The notes under the pieces are model-generated. The model did no database searches. It saw only the letters and a program-made list of their open reading frames with translations, and had not been told where the DNA came from. A stretch of 64,000 bases of DNA from positions 1-64,000 of the forward strand of contig JALONR010000010.1 of the NCBI GenBank assembly GCA_025454815.1, read 5' to 3'. Source of the DNA: Bacteroidales bacterium. Lineage in GTDB: Bacteria; Bacteroidota; Bacteroidia; Bacteroidales; VadinHA17. This document shows positions 41,696 to 48,694 of the stretch, in pieces; the stretch's first letter is position 1, and each line of letters opens with the position of its first letter. The position numbers and the translations under genes are program-made.

Positions 41696-42865
41696 ATGAA
41701 AAATAAGGAGATAAACAGTGTCAGAACGCCGGTATACCGTGATTCCGGCTTTGAGCTCCCTACAGCTGCAACCACCTCCGGGGCTTTTGCTTCAGAAATA
41801 AACCACGAGCGGGAGCCTGATCTTTATATCTATTCCCGGTATCGCAATCCCACAGTTGTTGCAGCAGAAGAGGCTCTGATGGAGGCAGAGGGATGTAAAT
41901 GGGCGCTCCTCTCGCAGTCGGGTATGGCAGCGATTGACATAGCCCTTTCAATTTTCCAGGAGGCAGGGAGGCAGAGCAACTGGCTTTTTTTCTCGGAGAT
42001 ATACGGCGGCACTCTTTCCTATATCGGGAGCGTCCTGCAGAAGCGCCGTGGCATGGAGGTAAGCTATTTCCGCCCGACAGACGGGAGGTATGACTACCGT
42101 CAGCTTGAGAGCGCCCTGTCAGACATCAGGCCTGACATATTATACTTTGAGACCATTTCCAACCCGTTGCTTATTGTTGCCGAAGGGAGAAGGGTTATTG
42201 GGCTCGGGAAGAAATACGGTGCAAGGGTCATTGTTGACAACACCTTCGCCACACCAATGCTCTGGAAACCGCTTGATGACGGGGCAGACCTGGTGATACA
42301 CAGCGCAACAAAGTATCTTTCCGGTCACGGCAATCTTACTGCAGGTGTTATCTGCGGCAACGACAGGGTGCTGATGCAAAGTGCGGTAGAGTACCGCAAA
42401 TTTGTGGGTCACATGCTGTCGCCTGATGATGCCTACCGGCTGCAGACGCAGATGGCATCATTCACTTTGCGGTTCAGGCAGCAGTGTGACAATGCCGCCG
42501 CCGTGGCAGCAATTCTGAAATCTTCAGACCGGGTCTCCGGCGTTCTCTATCCCGGGCTGGAGACCCATGATACCCATGCTGCGGCAAAGGACCTTACCGG
42601 CGGGAGGGGGTATGGCGCCATGATCACCTTTGATCTTGCCGGAGTTTCGCCGGAGGCAAAGAGAAAGAGCCGCGACAGGTTTATTGCATCCGTATATCCT
42701 GAGATACGTCTTATACCTACGCTCGGAGACAACCATACCATACTGATGCCGGTGGAGTCTGTGTGGGGTGCAAAATACCCGGAGCCGGGAATGATAAGGA
42801 TGTCAGTAGGTTTTGAGGAAACCGGCAGGCTGGCAGATGTAATCAGAAGAGGGCTGGAAAGCTGA
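41696..42865 (+). CDS. Trans-sulfuration-family PLP enzyme (cystathionine gamma-synthase / methionine gamma-lyase type)
   Basis: This PLP enzyme of the Cys/Met metabolism family has 389 residues. It has YSRYRNPTV, SQSGMAAI, FETISNPLL, VDNTFATP (Asp181) and Lys206 in HSATKYLSGHGN, the cofactor lysine. The family includes MetB, MetC, methionine gamma-lyase and O-acetylhomoserine sulfhydrylase, which cannot be separated by eye. No SAM riboswitch or other met gene is beside it. It appears to be transcribed alone. Confidence 0.87.
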   Translation: MKNKEINSVRTPVYRDSGFELPTAATTSGAFASEINHEREPDLYIYSRYRNPTVVAAEEALMEAEGCKWALLSQSGMAAIDIALSIFQEAGRQSNWLFFSEIYGGTLSYIGSVLQKRRGMEVSYFRPTDGRYDYRQLESALSDIRPDILYFETISNPLLIVAEGRRVIGLGKKYGARVIVDNTFATPMLWKPLDDGADLVIHSATKYLSGHGNLTAGVICGNDRVLMQSAVEYRKFVGHMLSPDDAYRLQTQMASFTLRFRQQCDNAAAVAAILKSSDRVSGVLYPGLETHDTHAAAKDLTGGRGYGAMITFDLAGVSPEAKRKSRDRFIASVYPEIRLIPTLGDNHTILMPVESVWGAKYPEPGMIRMSVGFEETGRLADVIRRGLES

Positions 42866-42873
42866 TCCCCGGT

Positions 42874-43536
42874 TTACCAGTTTACCGGCTCCAGTCCCCT
42901 GGCAGCCAGCCATTCATTGCATTTGCTGAAGTGTGAGCATCCGAAGAAACCCCTTGAGGCAGAGAGAGGGGAGGGGTGTACCGTTTTGAGGACCAGATGC
43001 CTGGCTTCGTCTATTGAAGCACCCTTGTTTTGTGCATATGCACCCCACAGCATGAACACCAGGTTCTCACGGTGATGGTTGAGGGCGCTGATGGCTGCAT
43101 CGGTGAACCGTTCCCACCCTTTGTTCTGGTGTGAGAGTGCCTGGTGTGCCCTTACAGTAAGTATTGCATTGAGCAGAAGCACACCCTGGCGGGCCCACCG
43201 CTCGAGGTTTCCTGAGCGGGGCACAGGTACCCCAAGGTCGCGGTTCAGCTCCTTAAAGATATTTACCAGGCTGGGAGGGAATTCGGTTCCGTCAGTGACG
43301 GAGAAGCATAGGCCATGAGCCTGTCCGTAATTGTGATACGGGTCCTGCCCGATGATGACAACCCTGACTTTTTCAAAAGGGCACAGGTCAAATGCGTTGA
43401 AGATTTGGTTGCCGGGAGGAAAGACCTGCCTTGTGCGGTACTCCTCCCTGACAAATGTGGCCAGGGCACTGAAATAATCCTTTTCGAATTCTCCGTGCAG
43501 CTTCTCCTTCCAGCCTGTCTCTATTTTTACATCCAT
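42874..43536 (-). CDS. ung: Uracil-DNA glycosylase
   Basis: The 220-residue product removes uracil from DNA. Family 1 motifs are intact: GQDPYHNYGQAHG (catalytic Asp65), LLLNAILTVRAHQALSH, LVFMLWGAYAQNKG and HPSPLSASRGFFGCSHFSK. Length is standard. Its stop lies 8 bases from that of the convergent trans-sulfuration gene. Confidence 0.97.
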   Translation of the reverse strand: MDVKIETGWKEKLHGEFEKDYFSALATFVREEYRTRQVFPPGNQIFNAFDLCPFEKVRVVIIGQDPYHNYGQAHGLCFSVTDGTEFPPSLVNIFKELNRDLGVPVPRSGNLERWARQGVLLLNAILTVRAHQALSHQNKGWERFTDAAISALNHHRENLVFMLWGAYAQNKGASIDEARHLVLKTVHPSPLSASRGFFGCSHFSKCNEWLAARGLEPVNW

Positions 43537-43635
43537 GCTGACGTTTAAATATGCTGTTAAATATATTGATTTTCGACGGAAGTGAATTTGTTTCCCGGAA
43601 CGGTCAGAAATTTAGTTAAATTAGGACCTCAAATT

Positions 43636-44661
43636 ATGAAAGTGATGATTGACCTGCGCAGTGACACCGTGACGAAACCATCAGCCGGGATGCTTGATTT
43701 CATGATGAATACACCGGTTGGAGACATGGTCTTCGGCGAGGACCCGGCGGTGAATGAACTTGAAGCAATGGCCGCAGACCTGTTCGGTATGGAGGCGGCC
43801 CTTTATTGTCCTTCCGGAACCATGACCAACCAGATTGCCATAAATGTGCATACCAGGCCCGGTGACGAGGTGATCTGCAGTCATATGGCCCATATCTATC
43901 TCTTCGAGGGAGGTGGTGTGGCTTTCAATTCGGGTGCATCGGTGGCCCTTATACAATCTGACAACGGCACCTTCACCGCTGAGGATGTAAGGCAGCATAT
44001 CAATAATCCTGATGACCCGCACAAGGCCTATTCAAGGCTTGTTGAGGTGGAGAACACAGTCAACCGTGGCGCGGGCACCTGCTGGGATTTCAGCGAGATG
44101 GTACGGATCAGGGAGTTGTGTGACCAGAGGCACCTGGGGTATCATCTTGATGGTGCTCGGCTCTTCAACGCTATGGTTGCCGACGGCCGGAAACCCCGGG
44201 AATACGGGGCTCTCTTTGACTCGATTTCCATCTGCCTTTCCAAGGGGCTTGGTGCTCCGGTGGGATCACTGCTGATTGGGAACCGCGATTTCATAAGACA
44301 GGGCGCCCGTGTGAGAAAGCTCTTCGGAGGTGCAATGAGACAGGCAGGTTATATCGCCGCTGCCGGAATCTACGCACTGAAAAACAATGTGGCAAGGCTG
44401 GCAGATGATCATCGCAATGCCTCGGCGCTAGCCGAAGCCCTGAAGCAGTGCAGACTGACGGAGATGGTTAATTATGGAGGCACTAACATCGTCATCTTTA
44501 CACTCAAACCCGGTATGAAGGCTTCTGAGTTTCTCGAAAAGATAAAGGGCAGGGGCATCCTTGCCCTCAGGACAGGCGAGAGAAGCATCAGAATGGTCAC
44601 CCACCTCGATCTGAGTGAAGTTCAGATCAGGGAAGCCTGCGATATCCTTGCTACCCTTTAA
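43636..44661 (+). CDS. ltaE: Low-specificity threonine aldolase
   Basis: This PLP enzyme (341 residues) cleaves L-threonine or allo-threonine to glycine and acetaldehyde. It has IDLRSDTVTKPSAGML, GDMVFGEDPAVNELE, CPSGTMTNQIAI, HLDGARLFNA and Lys203 in LSKGLGAPVGS. ATG at 43636 (or 43645) matches the family start; an in-frame GTG at 43582 is too far upstream. Its last 11 bases overlap the 3' end of the convergent DUF486 gene. Confidence 0.93.
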   Translation: MKVMIDLRSDTVTKPSAGMLDFMMNTPVGDMVFGEDPAVNELEAMAADLFGMEAALYCPSGTMTNQIAINVHTRPGDEVICSHMAHIYLFEGGGVAFNSGASVALIQSDNGTFTAEDVRQHINNPDDPHKAYSRLVEVENTVNRGAGTCWDFSEMVRIRELCDQRHLGYHLDGARLFNAMVADGRKPREYGALFDSISICLSKGLGAPVGSLLIGNRDFIRQGARVRKLFGGAMRQAGYIAAAGIYALKNNVARLADDHRNASALAEALKQCRLTEMVNYGGTNIVIFTLKPGMKASEFLEKIKGRGILALRTGERSIRMVTHLDLSEVQIREACDILATL

Positions 44662-45019
44662 AGGTGAAATAAATAGCGCCCAGGATGCAGATGAATGCAA
44701 AAAGGTGATTGAGCCTGAATGACTCGGTACGGAAAAACAACAGCGTAAAGACCACAAAAACCGAAATGGAGATCACCTCCTGGATGATCTTCAGCTCCAC
44801 CAGTGAAAACGGACCTCCCGTGCCACGATAACCGATCCTGTTGGCCGGCACCTGGAAGAAATACTCAAACAGTGCTATACCCCAGCTGGCCAGCACAATG
44901 CCAAAAAGCCCCAGCAGTGCATTCTTCGAAACGTTCTGGTATCTGAGATGACCGTACCATGCTATGGTCATGAAGGAGTTGGATACGATCAGCAGCAGTA
45001 TTGACCAGAGTCCTTTCAT
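44651..45019 (-). CDS. DUF486 family small membrane protein
   Basis: This 122-residue protein has four hydrophobic segments (LWSILLLIVSNSFMTIAWYG; LLGLFGIVLASWGIALFEYFF; QEVISISVFVVFTLLFF; FAFICILGAIYFTF), with QVPANRIGY and LKIIQEVI as DUF486 landmarks. DUF486 resembles a half-size DMT transporter, but transport has not been shown to my knowledge. The gene overlaps the acetyltransferase stop (ATGA) and is last in the kamA operon, so it could move the operon's product or substrate. Confidence 0.85.
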   Translation of the reverse strand: MKGLWSILLLIVSNSFMTIAWYGHLRYQNVSKNALLGLFGIVLASWGIALFEYFFQVPANRIGYRGTGGPFSLVELKIIQEVISISVFVVFTLLFFRTESFRLNHLFAFICILGAIYFTFKG

Positions 45020-45495
45020 AACTCTTTCCGGTAGACAAGTTTTGGGTCGCCTGGGCCATAGAACTCGCGCAGTGTGGCTTCAAGCTCATAGCCGTTGCGG
45101 ATGTAGAAGTGCCTGGTGGGTTCGTACAGCGGTCTGCCGGATGTCTCTATCCAGAGTATCCTTGCACCGAGTGATCTGACTCTCTCTTCCACCTCTTTAA
45201 GGATGACGGATCCATAGTGCTTCTTCCTGTGCTCCTCCTGGATGGCAATCCAGTACAGGTCCCATGAATGGACCGATGACGGATTGGGTCCAAAGTTCGC
45301 AAAACCGATCACTTTGCCTTCCTCCAGCAAACGAACCCAGTAGTATCCGCTCTTTTCCTGGCCCTGGGCCAGTGTCTCGTCAGCCAGCGACAATGCAACT
45401 TCTATCTCAAAGTCGTAAAAATAACCGGAGGATGTCAGAATCTTCTCAAGTTCAGGTCTGTCGGTCTGTGATATTTCAAATGAGATCTCGGGCAT
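45016..45495 (-). CDS. GNAT family N-acetyltransferase in kamA operon
   Basis: The 159-residue product has one GNAT domain with acetyl-CoA-binding motif A as LYWIAIQEEHRKKHYGSVILKEVEERV and motif B near HFYIRNGYELEATLREFYGPGD. It is shorter than AblB, the acetyltransferase that caps beta-lysine in methanogens. It sits 7 bases after the second ATP-grasp gene and overlaps the DUF486 gene, so the five proteins are probably made together. The acceptor substrate is unknown. Confidence 0.85.
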   Translation of the reverse strand: MPEISFEISQTDRPELEKILTSSGYFYDFEIEVALSLADETLAQGQEKSGYYWVRLLEEGKVIGFANFGPNPSSVHSWDLYWIAIQEEHRKKHYGSVILKEVEERVRSLGARILWIETSGRPLYEPTRHFYIRNGYELEATLREFYGPGDPKLVYRKEL

Positions 45496-45502
45496 GGTAT
45501 TT

Positions 45503-46471
45503 CTATCTGTTCAGGTCGTTGACAATATCCCTTATGATATCCTGGTGGGTATATCCGGCATGTACTGCTGCCGAGATGAATCCGCTGTCAGGTGAGATGC
45601 AAGGGTTTGCATTTACCTCCAGCACATAGACGTTTTCATCGGAATCAACTCTCATGTCAACGCGGGCATAGCCCTTCAGTCCGAAGACATTCCAGCAACC
45701 GATGACTGCATCCTTCAGGTTTTTCAGGAGTTTCTCACTCAGTCCATCCGGAAAGTAACGCCTGCTGTTCTCATACTGGAAAGTCTCTTCCATCCATTTG
45801 GCCTTGTAGCTTACGATGCGGGGAATGTCATCCGGGTAATTATGGAAGATCATTTCTGCCGGGGGAAGCATTTCCGGGCCGTCAGGACCGGCCTTGACAC
45901 TGACATTGAATTCCCTTCCATCAATGAATTCCTCAATGAACCAGTGGTGGTCATTTTTATCCTTCAGGATCTCAGGGATGGTACCCGAAAAAGTAAACAC
46001 TGACTCTTCCGTTATCCCCAGGGAGCCGTCTTCCCAGACAGGCTTGAGGATATATTTCTTTCCCCGGGTAAGCTGACGTGCCCCGGAGACTTTGTAGCCG
46101 CCGGCAACCGGTATGCCGTTGGCTTTCATTATATTTCGTGCCAGGACCTTGCTCCCGGTTACGAAGGTTGCCTCAACCGGGCAGCCGGTATAGGGAATGT
46201 GATGCATATTCAGAAGGCCAGGTATGAAATAGAGTATTTCAGCCTTTTTACCGACTGACTCGACAAGGTTGAATACAAATTCATATTTCTCTTCAGCGAT
46301 CTCTTCAATTTCCCTGAAGAAATTGTCGGTAATTCCGCGGCACTCCACTTCATAACCGAGGCTCTGCAGTGTCTCATCTATGAAATTGACCTGATCAAGT
46401 ACATCCAGCTCGTCAGGCAGGGCGTCAGGAGCAGGTTCATTGTAGATTATCAGGCAACTCCGGTTCATCAT
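45503..46471 (-). CDS. ATP-grasp ligase (D-Ala-D-Ala-ligase-like) B of the kamA operon
   Basis: This 322-residue ATP-grasp protein has the N-terminal DDL-like region (FVFNLVESVGKKAEILYFIPGLL, HIPYTGC), ATP-binding strands (KKYILKPVWEDGSLGI, HWFIEEFIDGREFNV) and the metal site VYVLEVNANPCISPDSGF. Family members join a carboxylate to an amine through an acyl phosphate. It differs clearly from peptidoglycan Ddl and from its neighbour. Its start overlaps the stop of ligase A (ATGA). Confidence 0.86.
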   Translation of the reverse strand: MMNRSCLIIYNEPAPDALPDELDVLDQVNFIDETLQSLGYEVECRGITDNFFREIEEIAEEKYEFVFNLVESVGKKAEILYFIPGLLNMHHIPYTGCPVEATFVTGSKVLARNIMKANGIPVAGGYKVSGARQLTRGKKYILKPVWEDGSLGITEESVFTFSGTIPEILKDKNDHHWFIEEFIDGREFNVSVKAGPDGPEMLPPAEMIFHNYPDDIPRIVSYKAKWMEETFQYENSRRYFPDGLSEKLLKNLKDAVIGCWNVFGLKGYARVDMRVDSDENVYVLEVNANPCISPDSGFISAAVHAGYTHQDIIRDIVNDLNR

Positions 46472-47442
46472 GCAAGTCCGTAACGTTTTTTAGCCGAATC
46501 CATAATCATTTCCATCAGTTTACCGAATTCCAGTCCGTTCATTCGCGAAAGCATCGGAAGGTCTGAATGTACGGGATTAAGACCTGCCAGCGGGTTAGCC
46601 TCAATGAAGCACATCCTTCCGTGACGGTCAGCCCTCATGTCAACGCGGCCTGCGTCCACCGCACCCAGGGCACGCCATGCGCCCAGGGCCACAGCATCAC
46701 ACTCTGCCCTCAGCTCCTCATCGTAGACCCTGTATTCAACATAGTTCTCGTAATTCTCCTTTACTTCAACAGAGTAGGGGAGATTATCCCTGCAGATCAC
46801 CTCCATTCCGCCTGTCACCTTTGCCCCGATGCCGTGACCGGTCACACCAACGGTAAATTCCCTTCCGGGAAGGTACTCTTCAATGAGCACCGGCTGTTTA
46901 TAGGTATCCAGCAGCTCAGTGACCAGCCTGACAAGCGATTCACGTTCCCTCACGACGCTCCTGGTGGTTATTCCCTTACCTGTTCCCTCGGCAACAGGTT
47001 TTACGAAAAGAGGGAATTCCAGAGATGAAAGATCTTCAAGGTCTCCGGCTGACGAAGCAATGATTCCGGGACACACAGGTACTCCTGCTGCTGCTACCAC
47101 AAGTCGCGTGAGGTATTTGTTGAGTGAAACACCCATTACCACCGGTCCGCTGAAAACATATGGAATGCGGTACTGGTCAAGCAATGCCGGAACCACCGAC
47201 TCGCGACCGTCACCGTAAAGTCCTTCAGCGATATTGAAAACCATGTCCCACCGTTCTCCGGCTGCAAGTTTCTCAACCAGCTCAAAGATATTGCCTATTC
47301 GGACCGTTTCATACCCGAGACGGGTGAGTTCGGTCTCGAGGGCAACCACGGTCTCCTCCTTGTCAAATTCAGCCGTTTCGTCCATGGTATAACCCCGCTC
47401 GAGGTACCACGAACGGAGGTCATACGTAAGTCCTATTCTCAT
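46468..47442 (-). CDS. ATP-grasp ligase (D-Ala-D-Ala-ligase-like) A of the kamA operon
   Basis: This 324-residue ATP-grasp protein is the first of two in the operon. Landmarks: MVFNIAEGLYGDGRESVVPALLD, RIPYVFSGPVVMG, the ATP loop PLFVKPVAEGTGKGI, VLIEEYLPGREFTV and the metal site GRMCFIEANPLAGLNP. The core resembles Ddl, but VDMRAD and the NPLAGLNPVHSDLPM tail match the separate Ddl-like group found with KamA proteins. It starts 7 bases after kamA. It probably forms an amide or peptide bond with the KamA product or a derivative. Confidence 0.86.
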   Translation of the reverse strand: MRIGLTYDLRSWYLERGYTMDETAEFDKEETVVALETELTRLGYETVRIGNIFELVEKLAAGERWDMVFNIAEGLYGDGRESVVPALLDQYRIPYVFSGPVVMGVSLNKYLTRLVVAAAGVPVCPGIIASSAGDLEDLSSLEFPLFVKPVAEGTGKGITTRSVVRERESLVRLVTELLDTYKQPVLIEEYLPGREFTVGVTGHGIGAKVTGGMEVICRDNLPYSVEVKENYENYVEYRVYDEELRAECDAVALGAWRALGAVDAGRVDMRADRHGRMCFIEANPLAGLNPVHSDLPMLSRMNGLEFGKLMEMIMDSAKKRYGLA

Positions 47443-47449
47443 CAGGTAC

Positions 47450-48694
47450 CTACTTTTTGTTGGGGTAAGTATAACGGTTCTGCCTGTAGTTTCTTAGGAC
47501 CCACTTTTCGGGGCCGCTTTCCACCACGTAATGCGGCAGGATGGGTATCTTGCCTCCTCCGCCCGGGGCGTCAACGACGAACTGGGGTACAGCATAACCG
47601 CTGGTATGACCCCGCAGGTTCTCGATTATATCAATTCCCGTCTCTATTGTTGTCCTGAAGTGGCTTGAGCCGGGTATCAGGTCACACTGATAGATATAAT
47701 AGGGTCTGACCCTGACGGTAAGAAGCTTTTGCATGAGGCTCTTCATGGTGGCCGGATCATCATTTACACCTTTCAGGAGGACTGTCTGGCTCCCCAGCGG
47801 CATCCCTGCGTCAGCGAGCATCTCGCATGCACGGCGTGTCTCGGGGGTCAGTTCATCGGGGTGTGTGAAGTGAATACTCAGGAAGAGCGGATGGTATTTC
47901 CTGAGCATGGCCACCAGCTGCGGGGTGATCCTCTGCGGAAGAACCACAGGAACCTTCGTGCCTATCCTCAGTATCTCAATATGCCTGATGGCCCTCAGGT
48001 TGGAGAGAAGATACTCCAGCTTGCTGTCATTCATTGTGAGGGGATCGCCTCCGCTTATAATGACATCACGAATCTCCGTATGCTCACGGAGATAGTTAAA
48101 AGCGAGTTCCCATTCACCCTTTGTGAGATGACCCAGCTTACCAACTGAATGTGAGCGGGTGCAGTACCTGCAATATGAAGAACAGAACTGCGTCACCGTG
48201 AACAGAGCCCTGTCAGGGTAACGGTGCACTATTCCAGGCACGGGACTGCTGCCCATCTCGTTGAGAGGGTCAGCCTTCTCTGCTTCGGTAATTATCAGCT
48301 CATCACTGGTGGGGATCATGGTCCGGCGAAGCGGTGACCATGGATCTGAGTCATGGATGAGTGAAAGATAGTATGGAGTTATCCTCAGCGGCAGTCTGCC
48401 CTTCAGCCCGTTGAGAGTATGAACCTCGTCATCGGTCAGTGTCATGACACGTGACAGGCTTTCAGCGGAAGTGAAGGAGTTGCGCAGTTGCCAGCGCCAG
48501 TCATTCCAGGAATCATCATTTGCAAGGGGGAAGTAGCGGCGTATGAATTCCGAACTCCGGTTGCTAACTAAACGATCGTGGGATCCGACCTGCGGGAAGA
48601 TCATGGTACCCGCGCCAGGTTCTTCGTCAGAAGAACAACCCATGAGGCGGCTCTCAACACGAGCAGCCGTTGCCTCTTTCCTGTTAGCGTTCAT
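47450..48694 (-). CDS. kamA: KamA family radical SAM lysine 2,3-aminomutase
   Basis: This 414-residue radical SAM, PLP-dependent aminomutase has cluster Cys171, Cys175 and Cys178 (CSSYCRYC). Asp338 (YQCDL) and Asp375 (FVVDAP) align with Asp293 and Asp330 of clostridial lysine 2,3-aminomutase, which hold the substrate epsilon-amino group; the spacing of 37 residues is the same. Lys382 (GGGGK, seven residues after Asp375) matches the PLP lysine. This favours L-lysine to L-beta-lysine over the glutamate 2,3-aminomutases of the same family. It heads the minus-strand operon with two ATP-grasp ligases, a GNAT and DUF486. Confidence 0.9.
   Translation of the reverse strand: MNANRKEATAARVESRLMGCSSDEEPGAGTMIFPQVGSHDRLVSNRSSEFIRRYFPLANDDSWNDWRWQLRNSFTSAESLSRVMTLTDDEVHTLNGLKGRLPLRITPYYLSLIHDSDPWSPLRRTMIPTSDELIITEAEKADPLNEMGSSPVPGIVHRYPDRALFTVTQFCSSYCRYCTRSHSVGKLGHLTKGEWELAFNYLREHTEIRDVIISGGDPLTMNDSKLEYLLSNLRAIRHIEILRIGTKVPVVLPQRITPQLVAMLRKYHPLFLSIHFTHPDELTPETRRACEMLADAGMPLGSQTVLLKGVNDDPATMKSLMQKLLTVRVRPYYIYQCDLIPGSSHFRTTIETGIDIIENLRGHTSGYAVPQFVVDAPGGGGKIPILPHYVVESGPEKWVLRNYRQNRYTYPNKK

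Follow-up and report, generated by a model that had tools for sequence, protein, structure and literature searches.

A recurrent KamA gene cassette with two Ddl-fold ATP-grasp ligases and a GNAT acetyltransferase, possibly for an amide-linked conjugate of beta-lysine

The window analysed here, a stretch of 64,000 nucleotides of contig JALONR010000010.1 from a Bacteroidales bacterium (GenBank assembly GCA_025454815.1), carries on its minus strand five tightly packed open reading frames (ORFs) encoding a KamA-type aminomutase, two ATP-grasp ligases named AGr1 and AGr2, a GNAT acetyltransferase and a DUF486 membrane protein (Table 1). KamA/AGr1 and AGr2/GNAT are separated by 7-base gaps, while AGr1/AGr2 and GNAT/DUF486 overlap by 4 bases. 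An earlier note on this DNA had described five genes around KamA on one strand with gaps of 7 bases or overlaps, and the ORF coordinates confirm this compact set. Four of the five genes recur as a unit in relatives and in other phyla, and the locus is probably a dedicated cassette for a small, acetylated conjugate in which beta-lysine is held in amide linkage.

Recurrence of the four-gene unit

In a set of 395 genomes from the phylum of the window, searched for AGr1 at E <= 1e-30 and with a KamA profile at E <= 1e-100, AGr1 is present in 101 genomes, KamA in 122 and both in 99. A KamA gene lies within 6 kb of 78 of the 101 AGr1 genes (Fisher odds ratio 583, ignoring relatedness), a count which considers one AGr1 place per genome and may miss some links. 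The expectation that these genes would be found linked in relatives is borne out by this count.

Composition of the cassette was analysed in 80 loci fetched with an AGr2 profile in named genomes, which are the best 80 of more and whose flanks of up to 7 kb are often cut by short contigs. AGr1 is present in 61 of these loci, GNAT in 62 and KamA in 55, and all four genes including AGr2 lie on one strand in 45. An HDAC domain is encoded in 14 loci, the arginine decarboxylase PvlArgDC in 8, agmatinase in 5 (in L072 about 5 kb away), a protein of the deoxyhypusine-synthase (DHS) family in 3 and DUF486 in 2. The recurrent unit is KamA-AGr1-AGr2-GNAT, with DUF486 as an occasional neighbour. The carriers are labelled Bacteroidota, Ignavibacteriota, Planctomycetota, Thermodesulfobacteriota, Nitrospirota, Myxococcota, Pseudomonadota, Acidobacteriota and Chloroflexota, and are mostly metagenome-assembled genomes.

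The nearest locus, L053, has the same five-gene order as the window at identities of 78, 72, 63, 66 and 70%, and together with the 45 four-gene loci it shows that the arrangement goes beyond coincidence. Across relatives the gene order holds for the four-gene unit and, in L053, for all five genes, but DUF486 is not constant. Its gene is located beside the cassette only in the window, L053 (70% identity) and L070 (46%), and it was rejected as a core member. In L074 the gene for an EamA transporter follows AGr2-GNAT. It is possible that DUF486 acts as an exporter.

Table 1. Coordinates of the five cassette genes in the window
Feature	Position	Strand	Details
KamA-type radical SAM/PLP lysine 2,3-aminomutase	47450..48694	-	414 aa; Pfam Radical_SAM and LAM_C
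AGr1, Ddl-fold ATP-grasp ligase	46468..47442	-	324 aa; Pfam Dala_Dala_lig_C (PF07478)
AGr2, second Ddl-fold ATP-grasp ligase	45503..46471	-	322 aa; Pfam Dala_Dala_lig_C (PF07478)
GNAT N-acetyltransferase, relative of PDB 2r7h, not AblB	45016..45495	-	159 aa; Acetyltransf_1 (PF00583)
DUF486/DMT_6 small membrane protein, occasional accessory	44651..45019	-	122 aa; PF04342, 138 bits

Active-site residues of KamA and of the two ligases

The only PDB sequence match of the window KamA at E <= 0.001 is the clostridial lysine 2,3-aminomutase 2a5h (434 bits). Residues D338, D375 and K382 of the window protein align with D293, D330 and K337 of 2a5h, of which we take the two aspartates to be lysine-binding and K337 to be the lysine that holds pyridoxal phosphate (PLP). 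The KamA alignment contains 86 rows, of which 49 are labelled as cassette members and 15 were retrieved as possible splits; the cassette rows L085 and L096 represent the same genes as two of these 15. All 49 cassette-labelled KamAs and all 15 possible-split rows retain the cysteines C125, C129 and C132 of the CxxxCxxC cluster, together with R134, D293, D330 and K337. In the same alignment, E. coli EpmB has glutamate at lysine 2,3-aminomutase position 330 (E330). Conservation of these active-site residues makes lysine the likely substrate, and KamA very probably produces beta-lysine. The two lysine-holding aspartates and the PLP lysine, earlier read from the letters, are thus found both in the alignment to 2a5h and throughout the cassette-labelled proteins. 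Calling the protein a true lysine 2,3-aminomutase is right for its active site; however, it does not belong to the AblA equivalog family.

Against TIGR03820, the AblA equivalog model, the window KamA scores 473.2 bits, under the cut-off of 525.4, and five other cassette KamAs score 455-495 bits, in contrast to 769 and 781 bits for two AblA controls that adjoin AblB. After clostridial position 365 only 4 residues follow in the window KamA, compared to 63 and 67 in the two AblA controls; the number is 37 and 45 in two cassette KamAs of the Ignavibacteria type. In the tree, the window KamA belongs to a clade of 45 rows (97/94), shared with KamAs of further cassettes and of split genomes, and six AblA-type rows, two of them with AblB confirmed beside them, form a separate clade (100/100). 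The Ignavibacteria-type cassette KamAs form a group of 15 rows (100/99) nested in a larger clade of 18 (100/100), and a few cassette KamAs (e.g. L081, L083, L125, L131) fall outside these three clades. The window genome (G000, 92.5% complete) contains no match to AblB (TIGR03827), and AblB is absent from the NCBIfam matches of the cassette GNAT, which matches PDB 2r7h with 109 bits. The sub-cut-off KamA, its different clade and the lack of AblB in this genome agree with the earlier view that the cassette is distinct from AblA/AblB. The phylum of the window also offers an unambiguous reference for the osmolyte pathway, an operon of AblA, a sodium/solute symporter and AblB (L199:3987-7578).

Other KamA relatives were observed beside these. 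A second KamA-like protein of the window genome (contig C20, L146:2174-3706, plus strand, 510 aa) has H293 and N330 and probably acts on another substrate, judging from these residues. Glutamine is present at position 293 in all five of the relatives L039, L040, L041, L045 and L208, a KamA type of part of the phylum, and in the first four of these loci an AGr1-like ATP-grasp protein is encoded close to the KamA gene. The AGr1-like proteins of L039 and L040 carry a long N-terminal region with no Pfam match, while L039 and L045 also encode a protein of 448-497 aa without a Pfam match. It is possible that these loci represent a sister pathway using another amino acid.

AGr1 and AGr2 share the fold of Ddl, the D-Ala-D-Ala ligase. 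Their AlphaFold2 models (pLDDT 94.8 and 95.6) match Ddl over the whole length in Foldseek (E 1e-24 and 1e-22), the best matches of AGr2 being Ddl, and the AGr1 model superposes on the Ddl fold with a Z-score of 31.9 and 2.6 A over 292 residues at 27% identity. However, against the best NCBIfam Ddl model (NF002378) AGr1 and AGr2 score 133.9 and 114.1 bits versus a cut-off of 243 bits, and their Ddl scores lie below cut-off among the matching models listed (25 of 40 and 25 of 30). A true Ddl is encoded on another contig of the window genome, a 346-aa protein that scores 350 against an equivalog cut-off of 310.

Residues were compared with E. coli DdlB in 87 AGr1-type and 90 AGr2-type proteins, some AGr1-like proteins from other contexts being included. 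Lys97, Lys144, Glu187, Arg255 and Asp257 of DdlB are invariant in both sets, and Lys215 is present in 81 of the 87 AGr1-type and in all 90 AGr2-type proteins, so that both ligases retain the ATP-binding residues. Tyr216, on the other hand, is kept in none of the 87 and none of the 90; this position is Trp in every AGr2, and in AGr1 it is Glu (33), Trp (28) or others. At position 150, where DdlB has Ser, 44 of the 87 AGr1 proteins carry Thr and 42 carry Ser, and all 90 AGr2 proteins carry Ala or Gly; the residue is Thr in AGr1 and Gly in AGr2 of the window. Ser281 is kept in 77/87 AGr1 and 17/90 AGr2 proteins, and the window AGr2 is among the 17. The idea that loss of Ser281 in AGr2 points to an acceptor without a carboxylate was hence dropped for the window. 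The column of Glu15 is poorly aligned at the N-terminus, and a nearly invariant Glu lies one residue off in AGr1.

It is to be expected from these residues that the substrates of AGr1 and AGr2 are distinct from those of Ddl and also from one another, and the bonds they form are very likely amide bonds other than D-Ala-D-Ala. This is in line with the previous claim of two different ATP-grasp ligases that are apparently not ordinary Ddl, given the scores below curated cut-offs and the absence of Tyr216. Separation from AblA and from Ddl means that naming the KamA 'AblA' or the ligases 'Ddl' would be misleading.

Lone relatives of AGr2 were also seen. The window genome encodes an AGr2-like ATP-grasp protein of 331 aa, below Ddl cut-offs, on contig C78 (L145:4237-5232, plus strand), flanked by genes which by eye look like those of a sugar-isomerase-like and a peptidase-like protein. 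In L117, L119, L124 and L128, AGr2-like ligase genes without a cassette lie beside a divergent gene, whose product, scanned in L117 only, weakly matches C39 peptidase.

Genes that accompany the cassette

Among the same-strand close neighbours in the 80 loci (54 ORFs, a subset of which was scanned), only a polyamine set and surrounding genes recur. PvlArgDC is located directly upstream of AGr1 or AGr2 in eight loci. In L107 the genes for a deoxyhypusine-synthase family protein, agmatinase, PvlArgDC, AGr1 and AGr2 follow in this order with 4-base overlaps; the first protein scores above the cut-off of TIGR00321, agmatinase above that of TIGR01230 and PvlArgDC above those of both its models. Such loci show chemistry to which the ligase family can be tied and not the use to which the window enzyme is put. 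The window genome has a PF01862 match (91 bits), a PvlArgDC-like protein under both NCBIfam cut-offs.

The second accompanying element is a fusion of an N-terminal GNAT with an HDAC-type domain in one reading frame, present in 14 of the 80 loci. In six of them (L079, L080, L086, L095, L097 and L130) the small GNAT of the cassette continues in the frame of the fusion, and therefore the acetyltransferase and deacetylase activities are physically tied. The HDAC domain of the L033 fusion matches Pfam Hist_deacetyl, and its best PDB matches are the acetylpolyamine amidohydrolases 9gkz and 6phr (222 and 211 bits). The domain is thus of the acetylpolyamine amidohydrolase type by sequence, with a predicted activity on acetylated polyamines. 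The window genome encodes a GNAT-HDAC fusion of 584 aa on another contig, unlinked to the cassette, with 59% identity to that of L033 over the 333-residue deacetylase part and 46% over the GNAT part.

Fusions were searched for in 79 genomes, namely 36 with a window-type cassette and no complete fusion in the locus (27 assigned by the AGr2 tree and nine by gene order), 14 with the other cassette type, 28 AGr1-negative genomes of the phylum and G362. An unlinked, full-length fusion is present in 8 of the 36 window-type genomes (L055, L064, L071, L076, L077, L085, L091 and L115). Partial matches were found for L088 and L078, consistent with contig breaks, as the fusion starts at the contig end in both loci, and for L099 the match covers HDAC only, at 39%. 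None of the 28 AGr1-negative controls and not G362 contains a fusion. Outside the AGr2 clade of the window, L131 has a fusion in its locus. The fusion is tied to the cassette but is not universal.

In the window itself, the end of the DUF486 gene overlaps by 11 bases the convergent gene of a GntG-family aldolase (43582-44661, plus strand). A scan for promoters and terminators gave counts no better than chance (8 where the mean was 7.7, and 7 where it was 7.1). At 41696-43536, inspection by eye suggested genes for a uracil-DNA glycosylase and for a PLP enzyme of Cys/Met metabolism; both families also adjoin the cassette in L053, and L052 and L054 contain their clusters as well, which indicates partial conservation of the wider neighbourhood. 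A gene of 725-745 aa upstream of some Ignavibacteria-type cassettes turned out to be RecG in the two members scanned and is uninformative.

Possible product, alternative readings and known systems

From the enzyme families we infer the following route. KamA would convert L-lysine to beta-lysine, AGr1 would use beta-lysine as the donor or the acceptor of a first amide bond, and AGr2 would make a second one to another partner, possibly a diamine or a polyamine. The small GNAT would then acetylate an amine, the unlinked GNAT-acetylpolyamine-amidohydrolase fusion of the window genome might add or remove acetyl groups on the same compound, and export may be by DUF486 where it is present. It is likely that the product holds beta-lysine. 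A role as a solute or osmolyte is conceivable but not the expected outcome, and a polyamine-like partner must be regarded as rather unlikely. It would be more speculative to propose that the cassette makes a new class of cationic metabolites of the beta-lysyl-polyamine type in several phyla, whose charge is switched by the acetyltransferase and the acetylpolyamine-type deacetylase. The beta-lysine amide pathway suggested in the earlier note is partly supported overall, through the active site of KamA and the non-Ddl character of the ligases.

Several observations weigh against this reading. Of the 101 AGr1 genes 23 have no KamA within 6 kb, and 46 of the 124 KamA genes have no AGr1 there, L052 lacks a GNAT beside its cassette, and the cassette KamAs do not form one clade. 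In G396, G398, G399, G401 and G402, KamA stands alone and AGr1 lies with AGr2 beside PvlArgDC. Splits of another kind, which keep KamA with AGr1 and count in favour of the proposed reading, occur in the Nitrospinota genomes G395, G397 and G400, with KamA-AGr1 at one locus and PvlArgDC-AGr2-GNAT at another, and in G408 (Clostridia), G410 (Planctomycetota by its L115 label) and G411 (presumably Planctomycetota from the genus of L112), where KamA-AGr1 is apart from AGr2 and GNAT adjoins AGr2 (weakly, at 31%, in G411). Therefore no gene pairing is absolute, KamA-AGr1 included; apparent splits in G403 and G413 were left uncounted because both halves lie at contig ends. The polyamine-linked AGr2s (7 of the 8 are in the tree) fall at three places outside the 40-row clade of the window AGr2 (98/95). 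Close to them are AGr2s of Ignavibacteria and those of L102 and L131, which are KamA-linked. This non-window AGr2 group also takes in DdlB and three AGr1 rows and is not necessarily a clade. When their own locus is set aside, no fusion match is seen in 25 of the 36 window-type genomes, nor in any of the 14 genomes of the other type, although L131, also of that type, has the fusion in its locus.

The alternatives differ in what they make of the ligases and of KamA. That the ligases are ordinary D-Ala-D-X enzymes of the cell wall, placed beside KamA by chance, would suit their fold and Pfam family and the frequent presence of Ser150 and Ser281 in AGr1, but the scores below Ddl cut-offs among the models listed, the complete lack of Tyr216, a separate Ddl over the equivalog cut-off and the genetic tie between AGr1 and KamA make it hardly credible. 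EpmB, a member of the KamA family, makes beta-lysine for EF-P in E. coli, and some ATP-grasp enzymes modify proteins, so the ligases could be imagined to be protein-modifying enzymes that add beta-lysine to a target protein, as EpmA does to EF-P. However, no protein of the window genome exceeds the EpmA cut-off (TIGR00462; best 233.3 of 286.9 bits, for a stretch of a 521-aa ORF read as lysyl-tRNA synthetase), the five genes include no evident target and the ligase fold is that of whole-length Ddl; we consider protein modification very improbable. None of the five proteins matched PADLOC-DB, which covers anti-phage defence.

Production of N-acetyl-beta-lysine as an osmolyte in the AblA/AblB manner would account for KamA and a GNAT in one operon, and the AblA-symporter-AblB operon of L199 indicates that relatives use this solute. 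It nevertheless appears improbable, as the GNAT does not match AblB, no AblB was found in the 92.5% complete genome, the tree separates the clades of cassette KamAs from that of AblA, and KamA occurs in 99 of the 101 AGr1 genomes. The D-Ala-D-Ala ligase, EF-P lysylation, osmolyte and defence readings are hence rejected or lowered. A further alternative is that a polyamine is joined to beta-lysine (or to lysine), the charge of the conjugate being controlled by acetylation and deacetylation. It is suggested by the arginine decarboxylase, and in some loci agmatinase and the deoxyhypusine-synthase-family gene, around AGr1 or AGr2, by the amidohydrolase-type domain in the cassette or fused with its parts, and by the PF01862 match of the window genome. 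On the other side, the polyamine-linked AGr2s lie outside the AGr2 clade of the window, Ser281 loss in most AGr2s is inapplicable to an enzyme that has Ser, the PvlArgDC-like protein stays under its cut-offs and no polyamine gene adjoins the cassette of the window, which leaves this conjugate a fairly unlikely outcome.

Our searches of an open-access library turned up no description of the cassette, subscription papers being outside that scope. The 2009 survey of ATP-grasp amidoligases by Iyer et al. reportedly covers such neighbourhoods, and an earlier mention there is possible. The enzyme families are known, and the combination of genes and the product appear to be undescribed. The tie to the GNAT-acetylpolyamine-amidohydrolase fusion, the arginine-decarboxylase loci and the optional nature of DUF486 are additions to the earlier note. 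Presence of the four-gene unit across Bacteroidota, Ignavibacteriota, Planctomycetota, Thermodesulfobacteriota, Pseudomonadota and others predicts a widespread metabolite, and a KamA group with a lysine 2,3-aminomutase active site is set apart from the N-acetyl-beta-lysine osmolyte. The cassette is also a short pathway that can be expressed directly, which offers a route to finding the compound.

Among known systems, the solute pathway of N-acetylglutaminylglutamine amide (NAGGN) combines an acetyltransferase and a ligase into a capped small peptide solute. It resembles the cassette in this respect and differs in that it is not known to include an aminomutase. The HDAC domain of the fusion is closest in PDB sequence matches to the acetylpolyamine amidohydrolases, to which the cassette-linked protein adds an N-terminal GNAT and, in six loci, also the small GNAT. 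AGr1 and AGr2 share with Ddl the whole-length fold and the ATP-grasp residues; however, they lack Tyr216, score below the Ddl cut-offs, are genetically tied to KamA and coexist with a separate Ddl in the genome. The AblA/AblB pathway resembles the cassette in that a lysine 2,3-aminomutase having the same lysine-binding residues is paired with a subsequent acetyltransferase. In contrast to it, the cassette adds two ATP-grasp ligases and often a GNAT-deacetylase fusion, its acetyltransferase is not AblB, and its KamA scores below the TIGR03820 cut-off, is without the C-terminal part of AblA and belongs to another clade.

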